Shown one piece after another: positions 651 through 5,544 of a stretch of 44,435 nt of DNA. The notes under the pieces were generated by a model. That model was not told the DNA's origin. It saw nothing but the letters and a program-made list of their open reading frames with translations, and did not search any database. This stretch comes from a virus, in IMG/VR virus record IMGVR_UViG_3300018057_000017, positions 1 through 44,435 of that record, one strand, 5' to 3'. Position 1 is the stretch's first letter, and every line of letters begins with the position of its first letter. A program made the position numbers and the translations under genes.

Positions 651-1769
651 ATGGCAGTTTATTACAATGAGATTGACCCATTTGCGGCGGCGTGGTTGCG
701 GGAACTGATTAAGGCGGGACATATCGCCAAAGGGGAAGTCGATGGCCGACCCATTAAGGAAGTCAAGAGCGACGAACTTCGCGGGTTCGCCCAATGCCAC
801 TTCTTCGCCGGGATCGGCGTGTGGAGTTACGCCCTTAGAGCGGCTGGATGGGCAGACGATACTCCCGTTTTTACAGGCAGTTGTCCCTGCCAGAGTTTCA
901 GTGCGAGCGGGAAGCGGGGAGGCTTCTCAGATCAGCGTCACTTATGGCCCGCATGGTTCAGGCTCATCCGAGAGCTACACCCTGACACAATCTTTGGCGA
1001 GCAGGTTGCGTCCAAAGACGGCCTCGCTTGGCTCGACGTTGTTTCGGCTGATTTGGAAGGAGCGGGTTACGCCATCGGGACGGCGGATTTGTGCGCTGCG
1101 GGCTTCGGGGCGCCGCACATCCGGCAGCGATTGTACTTCGTGGCCGAGTCCGCAGGCGTTCGATTCGAGTCCTTGCGAGAAATCAGGCGAAGCAATGAGC
1201 AGGGCAATGGCTGGGAGGGCGATTCCAGGGCGCAACGGCGGTCCACCAGCGAACCTTCGCGAGAAGGCGAAGCTGGCTGCATGGCCGACGCCGAACTGTA
1301 TGGACAGCCTACCAAGCGGGAATCTGGAGGAGCGCAAGACGAAAGGCGGCTGCATCAACCTGAAGGACGTGGCTCCGCTGGCGACCTGGGCGACACCGCA
1401 CAGCGAGGACTCGGAATGCGTGGGAGCACATCGGGGGAACGCGGACGGGCTGCACAGCCAGAGCAAACTAACGAATTGGACATCACCAACGTCGAGGGAT
1501 TGGAAGGGCGACAGTCGGAAGATGCAGGCCAAGGGACCGAAAGTGCCGGGCGGTGTAAGATTACCGGGCGAGGCTTTACTAACGGCTTCTGGGCCGACGC
1601 CGAATGGATCTGGTGCCGGGACCAAAAGTACCGGCCAGTTGAACCCGGCACATTCCCGCTGGTTACAGGGGCTACCAACCGTGTGGGACGATTGCGCGGC
1701 TATGGTAATTCCCTTACGGCGCCGGTCGCGGAAGAGTTTATAAGAGCATACATGGAGCTCAATCGATGA
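651..1769 (+). CDS. DNA (cytosine-5) methyltransferase, phage Dcm-like
   Basis: Probably methylates cytosine at C5 in phage DNA, most likely to evade host restriction. Visible motifs: motif I FFAGIG (residues 51-56, AdoMet binding), motif IV PCQ with catalytic Cys80, motif VI as GEQV (116-119) where ENV is usual, motif VIII IRQRLYFVA (157-165), and motif X around GNSLTAPVAEEFIRAY near the C terminus. Residues about 170-310 form a low-complexity region with repeated ADAxxxG/GDTxxxG units in the place of the target-recognition domain. A second long frame (742-1743) overlaps almost the whole gene. The stop overlaps the next gene's ATG (ATGA). Identity as a C5 methyltransferase is secure; the target sequence is unknown. 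Confidence 0.9.
   Translation: MAVYYNEIDPFAAAWLRELIKAGHIAKGEVDGRPIKEVKSDELRGFAQCHFFAGIGVWSYALRAAGWADDTPVFTGSCPCQSFSASGKRGGFSDQRHLWPAWFRLIRELHPDTIFGEQVASKDGLAWLDVVSADLEGAGYAIGTADLCAAGFGAPHIRQRLYFVAESAGVRFESLREIRRSNEQGNGWEGDSRAQRRSTSEPSREGEAGCMADAELYGQPTKRESGGAQDERRLHQPEGRGSAGDLGDTAQRGLGMRGSTSGERGRAAQPEQTNELDITNVEGLEGRQSEDAGQGTESAGRCKITGRGFTNGFWADAEWIWCRDQKYRPVEPGTFPLVTGATNRVGRLRGYGNSLTAPVAEEFIRAYMELNR
742..1743 (+). CDS. Overprinted reading frame inside the C5 methyltransferase gene
   Basis: An open frame of 333 codons, shifted relative to the methyltransferase. From about residue 75 it does not look like random shadow translation: it has a basic segment (TLFRLIWKERVTPSGR), then spaced units of the form W-x-S/T-P (WPSP, WPTP, WATP, WTSP), then a C-terminal LNPAHSRWLQGLPTVWDD. 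From memory, very similar proteins overlap Dcm-type genes in many phages, and an NP...LMG.P..W signature occurs at the C terminus of other phage Dcm enzymes. The WxTP units are the same DNA as the ADA/GDT units of the main frame. The start at 742 is uncertain because the first 70 residues look like shadow. Function unknown. Confidence 0.45.
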   Translation: MADPLRKSRATNFAGSPNATSSPGSACGVTPLERLDGQTILPFLQAVVPARVSVRAGSGEASQISVTYGPHGSGSSESYTLTQSLASRLRPKTASLGSTLFRLIWKERVTPSGRRICALRASGRRTSGSDCTSWPSPQAFDSSPCEKSGEAMSRAMAGRAIPGRNGGPPANLREKAKLAAWPTPNCMDSLPSGNLEERKTKGGCINLKDVAPLATWATPHSEDSECVGAHRGNADGLHSQSKLTNWTSPTSRDWKGDSRKMQAKGPKVPGGVRLPGEALLTASGPTPNGSGAGTKSTGQLNPAHSRWLQGLPTVWDDCAAMVIPLRRRSRKSL

Positions 1770-4438: not shown

Positions 4439-4449
4439 GAGAGGTGGTC

Positions 4450-5544
4450 ATGGCCGTTCAAGAGCAAAAAGTGACGGAACGATATGCGGTCTACCTCGGG
4501 GACGCCATCGAAGTTCTGAAGAACTTCCGAAAGGAATCCGTTCACCTTTCGATCTACTCCCCGCCGTTCGCCACTTCCGGGGGTGCCCTTTACAGGTATT
4601 CATCGAGCGAACGAGATATTTCAAACTCGTTGAGCTATGAGCAATTCTTCGATCATTATAGCTACCTAATGCATGAAGTGTGGAGGCTGACCATGCCGGG
4701 GCGAATCAGTGCGGTCCACTGCATGGACATCGCTTCTGGGAATACGGGCAACGATCATTTGACCGACTTCCCCGGTGACATTATCCGTCTCCACGCGGGC
4801 TGCCGCGAAAAAAACTGCAAGGCGAATCACTACGACCGCACGAGCGGAAAATGCGGACACGGCCTCTGGCATCACACCGGGCGCTACTGCGTCTGGAAAG
4901 AACCTCTCAAGGTGAGGAACAGGACGATGGCCAAGCATCTTTTCCACAAGGTTGCCGTGGAAGATTCGGCGCGTTGCAGCCCGGCTCTCGCCGATTATGT
5001 TCTGATTTTCAGAAAGAAGGGTGACAACGCGGTCCCGATTGCTCATCCACGCGGCCTGATCTATTATGCCGGAGAGCGCAAGCCCCCGGCAGACGTGCTT
5101 CATTACAAGGGCTGGAAGGGGGATCAGATTCAGAACAGATACTCGCATTGGATTTGGCGTCAATATGCGTCTGCCTTTTGGGATGACATCCGCGTTGATC
5201 ACGTTCTGAAGCACCGGCAGGCTAGGGACGAGCAGGACGAGGACCATGTTCATCCGCTCCAACTGGACGTCATCGACCGGATCGTTACGCTCTGGTCGAA
5301 TCCTGGAGAGACCGTGTTGAGCCCATGCGCGGGAGTAGGCAGCGAAGTCTACGGAGCTCTGTGTAATGATCGGAGAGCCATCGGCGTGGAACTCAAGCCG
5401 TCCTATTATCGGATGATGCTGAAAAACATCTCTGAGGCTAAAGTTCGGGAAGATGATGACGAGCCGACCTTCAGTTTTTACGAGAAATCAACAGAGGGGG
5501 AAGTTGAGGATGTCGAAGCTGAAGAGGCCGAAGCAACCGCCTAA
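4450..5544 (+). CDS. DNA methyltransferase, N4-cytosine/N6-adenine type
   Basis: A 364-residue beta-class-order DNA methyltransferase. The catalytic SPPF (residues 37-40) comes first, and the AdoMet-binding motif I (SPCAGVGSE, about 295-303) lies near the C terminus. SPPF suggests N4-cytosine, but N6-adenine cannot be excluded. An insertion with several Cys and His residues (CREKNCKANH ... CGHG ... HHTGRYC, about 113-142) looks like a zinc-binding module. The C-terminal tail is acidic. ATG 4450 is favoured over GTG 4444 because GGAGAGG lies just upstream. It probably modifies phage DNA against restriction. It overlaps the start of the next zinc-ribbon gene. Confidence 0.85.
   Translation: MAVQEQKVTERYAVYLGDAIEVLKNFRKESVHLSIYSPPFATSGGALYRYSSSERDISNSLSYEQFFDHYSYLMHEVWRLTMPGRISAVHCMDIASGNTGNDHLTDFPGDIIRLHAGCREKNCKANHYDRTSGKCGHGLWHHTGRYCVWKEPLKVRNRTMAKHLFHKVAVEDSARCSPALADYVLIFRKKGDNAVPIAHPRGLIYYAGERKPPADVLHYKGWKGDQIQNRYSHWIWRQYASAFWDDIRVDHVLKHRQARDEQDEDHVHPLQLDVIDRIVTLWSNPGETVLSPCAGVGSEVYGALCNDRRAIGVELKPSYYRMMLKNISEAKVREDDDEPTFSFYEKSTEGEVEDVEAEEAEATA

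Follow-up and report, generated by a model that had tools for sequence, protein, structure and literature searches.

The question raised by this locus is whether a phage cytosine methyltransferase gene carries a second gene within it and, if so, what the second product does. The window, that is the whole 44.4-kb virus record that was analysed, contains genes including terminase, portal, tail sheath and baseplate, and therefore its source is most likely a myovirus. Frame 0 of the methyltransferase gene matched PF00145 (E 6.3e-16, the match spanning profile positions 63-163 of 324) and phrog_363 (E 4e-76, residues 1-371). All of the motifs sought for a catalytic core (I, IV/PCQ, VI, VIII and X) were found in frame 0, as FFAGIG (I), GSCPCQ (IV), GEQV (VI), GAPHIRQRL (VIII) and RLRGYGNS (X, in the window GRLRGYGNS), and PCQ, GEQV, IRQRL and YGN were among many frame-0 columns that were invariant or nearly so in alignment A2. 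Region 166-310 of frame 0 is of low complexity and poorly conserved, and a conserved C-terminal segment of 60 residues (FWxDAxWLxCRDxKxRPVEPGTxPL) is retained. The preliminary description of this DNA claimed that a second frame is open through nearly the whole gene, and we found it as claimed: the ORF at 742-1743 lies in +1 relative to the Dcm ORF (651-1769), has 333 codons (344 from stop to stop) and ends 26 bases upstream of the Dcm ORF end (Table 1).

Table 1. Features of the methyltransferase gene and of its +1 frame, with positions in the window.
Feature	Position	Strand	Evidence
Frame 0: C5-cytosine DNA methyltransferase (Dcm)	651..1769	+	PF00145, phrog_363
+1 frame: WPTP-repeat protein of 333 aa, overprinted on frame 0; proposed as beta partner (TRD/motif IX)	742..1743	+	phrog_1008, phrog_31772, conserved in 219/219 families
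Start of the +1 frame: ATG (742-744) with purine-rich AAAGGGGAAG	729..744	+	ATG/SD-like statistics in families
Residues 76-123 of the +1 protein, the single region modelled with confidence: SLASRLRPKTASLGSTLFRLIWKERVTPSGRRICALRAS, folded as a helix plus a beta hairpin	967..1110	+	AlphaFold2
+1 repeat unit WPSP (frame 0: AES)	1141..1152	+	sequence reading
+1 repeat unit WPTP (frame 0: MADA)	1282..1293	+	sequence reading
+1 repeat unit WATP (frame 0: LGDT)	1387..1398	+	sequence reading
+1 repeat unit WTSP (frame 0: LDIT)	1477..1488	+	sequence reading
+1 C-terminal motif LNPAHSRWLQGLPTVWDD, motif-IX-like	1639..1692	+	synonymous obs/exp 2.73 at 1641-1685

For the window gene alone, shuffling of its own synonymous codons gave a mean of 3.2 stops in the +1 frame and left that frame stop-free in 1.0% of shuffles, with P = 0.011 in the longest-open-frame variant of the test. 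Among 80 viral loci retrieved by the Dcm profile or protein alone, the +1 frame was open in 80/80 and encoded, each time, the WPTP...LNPAHSRWLMGLP protein, at profile scores of 266-390 bits. When synonymous codons were shuffled within the genes of 219 families with <70% identity between them, 219/219 were open in +1 vs 7.7 expected. The region used in this comparison was defined by the +1 ORF itself, and a control on a fixed region therefore matters: from QCHFF to just before the glycine of motif X, the +1 frame was stop-free in 62/62 distinct genes (5.4 expected) and the +2 frame in 0/62, and thus in both comparisons the second frame was open beyond chance. Stops in the +1 frame of the 219 families were common at Dcm residues 1-38 and 345-371, and exactly one was located within residues 39-344, instead of the frequent stops that would speak against a second gene. 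Much of the similarity between +1 frames derives from frame 0, whose conservation inflates it (the +1 profile reached 124 bits on shuffled genes and 333 bits on real genes), and therefore the tblastn E-values of the +1 frame were dropped as direct evidence and just the excess over shuffles was counted. The held-out +1 profile scored higher than all shuffles in 61/61, and the +1 frames of the AT-richer Bacillota/Bacteroidota phages Jacopo, MM1, pST and BS-TP4 each beat 1000/1000 shuffles. Judged from these sequence comparisons, a second gene almost certainly exists, chance being a very unlikely explanation, and the locus is near certain to be a true overlapping gene pair.

A start signal had been suggested near 742-980, and at that place the +1 ATG was accompanied by an SD-like sequence in 152/216 families, vs 47.8 ± 5.5 in synonymous shuffles (maximum 59); internal ATGs generally had an SD in 11%. 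In these 216 families the ATG was located at Dcm residue 37 in 149, at residue 31 (the window's 742) in 85 and at residue 41 in 69, and the GAT:GAC ratio was 153:38 at column 37 and 2039:3415 elsewhere in the gene. The window's own site upstream of 742 reads GGGG, and a strict 4-base match to AGGAGG is absent.

Selection was then compared along the gene and between the two frames. Synonymous obs/exp, measured as the identity of synonymous codons, was about 1.1 over the first 75 Dcm residues and the last 12, and 1.2-2.7 (mostly >1.4) at residues 76-360; instead of constraint in one frame only, which had been named as the outcome against two coding frames, the frame-0 synonymous sites proved constrained within the overlap alone. 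Strong constraint starts only at about nt 885, and conservation of the +1 protein is therefore weak over its first 45-50 residues. Codon-position conservation, which had been proposed as a check, switches as dual coding predicts: position 3 is lowest outside the overlap and position 1 is lowest at 1641-1685, where frame-0 codon position 1 is the third position of the +1 frame, the dual-frame constraint is strongest, and the amino-acid identity is 0.81 for the +1 protein vs 0.68 for Dcm. The +1 protein is also slightly better conserved than frame 0 at 1248-1550 (0.30 vs 0.25), and outside these two regions frame 0 is mostly the better conserved. Third-position identity was raised in the overlap, in line with dual-coding expectation: it was 0.70 between the window and locus L006 at 68% amino-acid identity, and 0.36 for the neighbouring helicase gene, the single neighbour compared, against locus L022 at 46% amino-acid identity. 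Moreover, within the WPTP units the frame-0 base deciding Ala/Thr/Ser vs Pro is C in 33/442, vs 37% in the ACN codons of neighbouring genes, and this avoidance of C indicates that frame 0 is constrained even there.

The preliminary description read WPTP, WATP and WTSP units in the second frame, with ADA or GDT as their counterpart in the main frame. The repeats are indeed present, but just two of the four units show the pairing (Table 1); the co-variation of the repeats is also present, but it is a mechanical effect of shared DNA and no evidence by itself. The AlphaFold2 model of the +1 protein was poor (mean pLDDT 55.7, pTM 0.29), and its folded part (pLDDT ~75-88) includes the highly conserved G97 and W105; the WPTP repeats are predicted to be disordered, and no solved structure is related to them by sequence. 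The +1 protein matched phrog_1008 (E 8.6e-26, residues 12-319 to profile 11-282) and phrog_31772 (E 1.5e-14), all 28 A1 members matched PHROG 1008, and the search against Pfam, NCBIfam and PDB sequences gave zero matches.

As an ORF the second frame is already described: it matches these two PHROGs, and several phage records annotate it or its counterpart, under the labels 'DNA methyltransferase', 'beta subunit' and 'Mte8-like'. Both frames are annotated in PhiXhv-28, K1ind1, fTaEco01 ('Mte8-like'), Jacopo and pST, the +1 frame alone is annotated, in part, in phiKX1 and Cr-LKS3 (the Dcm frame being missed), and the record of MM1 names its own nested +1 ORF 'beta subunit'. The PHROG label ('DNA methyltransferase' for 1008 and 31772) is silent on the encoding inside a Dcm gene and on which half of the enzyme is meant, and a description of the WPTP family was not found in the literature searched. 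A plasmid search gave 17 records, and among the matches listed nearly all were annotated as DNA cytosine methyltransferase. In searches of the loci and of actinophages, no clear standalone +1 copy without a nearby Dcm gene was found, and four odd loci in the standalone search look like fragments or broken frames. In two loci (L149 at ~2979 and L187 at ~2850), one in-frame stop breaks the Dcm frame while the +1 frame stays open, which may be either prophage decay or an odd case keeping only the +1 protein. In Krischvirus LF73P4 (L375, 1903-2680), an indel swaps the frames, so that one ORF has the +1 N-terminus followed by the C-terminus of Dcm; this may be a sequencing error or decay.

The preliminary description took the function to be undescribed, and it is not wholly open because the same type of protein forms part of a single-frame methyltransferase elsewhere. 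Among 53 actinophage loci, 36 have a single fused ORF, 13 have a separate +1 gene overlapping the core by just 100-400 bases, and three have both ORFs apart (overlap <=100 nt). As a separate gene, the actinophage +1-type protein has LPTP repeats, an LxxxFxEWMMGxPxGW element and motif X, and the partner ORF ends after motif VIII; in Phanphagia, gp65 ends after motif VIII, and gp66 has LPTP repeats, the element EWMMGWPAGW and motif X (GNGVCPQQA). In the fused form, a methyltransferase read in one frame has the +1-type protein as its C-terminal half, located after motif VIII and before motif X. By hhalign, the overlapped +1 proteins aligned with the separate actinophage ones with probability 95.3 (E 2e-8), and A1 aligned with the fused ones only over the 26-column LNP motif (probability 58). 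The fused Wachhund protein models as a C5-methyltransferase like M.HhaI (Z 22); its repeats are placed, at low confidence, after motif VIII and before the folded part with motifs IX/X. In L381, L409, L411 and L414, frame 0 includes the LPTP half by fusion, and the catalytic core is nevertheless overlapped by a +1 ORF of reduced length (~120-190 codons) carrying TWPxTGxMSxGxxYELPTSExHTSxSxxSSLPTP.

The occurrence of the +1-type protein in actinophages, separate or fused as the C-terminal half of a methyltransferase, leads us to read the pair as a split C5-methyltransferase, in which the +1 protein is probably the beta part and partner of the frame-0 protein. This reading builds on dual coding, on conserved +1 start signals and on homology to separate or fused methyltransferase C-terminal halves, all three established by comparing genes and their translations. 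Frame 0 would make the C5-cytosine methyltransferase core, in which a low-complexity linker joins motifs I-VIII to motif X, and a second ribosome entry about 90 bases downstream would give the WPTP-repeat protein. In the latter, the WPTP repeats would occupy the place of the target-recognition domain and the LNPxxxxWLMGxPxxW element, which aligns with the stretch before motif X of the actinophage proteins, the place of motif IX. The +1 chain would then join the frame-0 chain in an active, sequence-specific enzyme modifying phage DNA; we infer that the +1 protein recognises the target and that the modification protects from restriction. A wider form of this proposal, in which one DNA stretch holds both halves of a heterodimeric enzyme, the target-recognition half being written across the gene of the catalytic half, in phages of several bacterial phyla, is tentative, at somewhat less than an even chance. 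If true, both subunits would travel between phages as a single unit, and one change in the repeats would affect both of them together, the specificity subunit itself and the catalytic subunit in its linker.

A natural precedent is M.EcoHK31I (YGGCCR), an enzyme of two polypeptides that belongs to a restriction-modification system, not to phages, and whose small-subunit gene reportedly lies in another frame of the large-subunit gene. Motif IX is in its small polypeptide, and the large one has the predicted target-recognition domain together with motifs I-VIII and X (PMC3404938). The large chain of the window (motifs I-VIII and X in frame 0) fits that large chain, whereas our reading puts the target-recognition domain in the +1 chain. 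Compared by motif layout, the window pair seems fairly likely to work like M.EcoHK31I, which is not to claim membership of its family. The division of M.AquI differs from that of M.EcoHK31I (PMC3404938): it is a natural split after motif VIII, which gp65/gp66 of Phanphagia resembles, and its small subunit holds motifs IX and X, whereas motif X of the window is in frame 0, and a small chain with motif X was found in actinophage relatives alone, for example in L382. A phage C5-methyltransferase gene with a nested +1 ORF is also present in Streptococcus phage MM1 (annotated 'C5 methyltransferase alpha/beta subunit'), but this ORF is shorter (141 aa), belongs to phrog_16143, has no WPTP repeats and matches phrog_1008 weakly (E 5e-4). 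The out-of-frame HNH endonuclease of the ShiLan domain is also an out-of-frame protein within a phage methylase gene, but it is a mobile insertion covering its own insert alone (PMC11855218), whereas in the window the methylase core itself is dual coding. Nested +1 ORFs of phrog_16143 were observed in Streptococcus phage C5-methyltransferase genes at L379 (1574-1999) and L383 (1583-2002); this type of ORF ends SLSDILEExVxxxYFLS, and frame 0 there appears to have all motifs.

Several observations count against the split enzyme and leave room for another role, namely that the +1 frame makes a true protein with its own job (DNA binding, inhibition of host restriction or defence, or regulation of the methylase) and no methyltransferase subunit. 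Disordered repeats without a solved relative would be an unusual target-recognition domain; the conserved C-terminal stretch retained by frame 0 could itself do the job of motif IX, so that the +1 protein may have a different role; and Streptococcus phages such as MM1 retain a +1 ORF, of the other type, although frame 0 looks complete and has, by our own reading, a typical motif IX (LTPRECWRLQGFP). The short hhalign match of A1 to the fused proteins, limited to the LNP motif, also weighs against the split enzyme. We nevertheless hold a protein with its own job to be unlikely, since the actinophage counterpart carries motif X and is fused to, or split from, the methyltransferase core.

A single transframe protein, with programmed frameshifting joining frame 0 and +1, might be suspected from two frames open over 300 codons and from a frame-0 motif X just behind the motif-IX-like element of the +1 frame, as in the fused proteins; it is improbable, because motif X would be restored only by two shifts, the +1 constraint begins well upstream of motif VIII, and the +1 frame has its own SD and ATG. 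RNA structure or a DNA signal, with no protein, could account for the strong local constraint at 1641-1685, but is very improbable, as the constraint extends over 800 bases, shows codon periodicity and goes with avoidance of stops in a single frame. A second frame open by accident, through GC content, codon bias or sequence repeats, to which the P of ~0.01 for the window by itself and the 124 bits on shuffled genes might point, was ruled out by the codon shuffles of homologues (219/219 open vs 7.7; 61/61 above all shuffles), the bounding of the constraint by the ORF ends and the separate gene elsewhere, and has next to no likelihood.

The overlap of ~300 codons is very widely conserved in tailed phages, being kept in over 200 phage gene families, and of the two frames annotation mostly retains just one. 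Should the +1 protein be the specificity subunit of a split methyltransferase, the descriptions of hundreds of phage 'orphan methyltransferases' would cover only half of the enzyme. The locus also offers a tractable natural case, including in the well-studied phages N15 and epsilon15, of two proteins evolving inside one DNA sequence.

Other reading frames were observed around the gene. An antisense ORF of 339 aa lies across the Dcm gene on the minus strand (975-1994), and since antisense frames were open in just 5/62 homologues, it is probably a by-product. An ORF with a C-terminal double zinc ribbon (PF12773) is located at 216-800 on the minus strand, and a small zinc-ribbon-like ORF on the plus strand (44-226) adjoins it. 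In addition, a second methyltransferase-like gene (phrog_67) is located at 4444-5544, with a C-terminal match to the DNA helicase family phrog_16.
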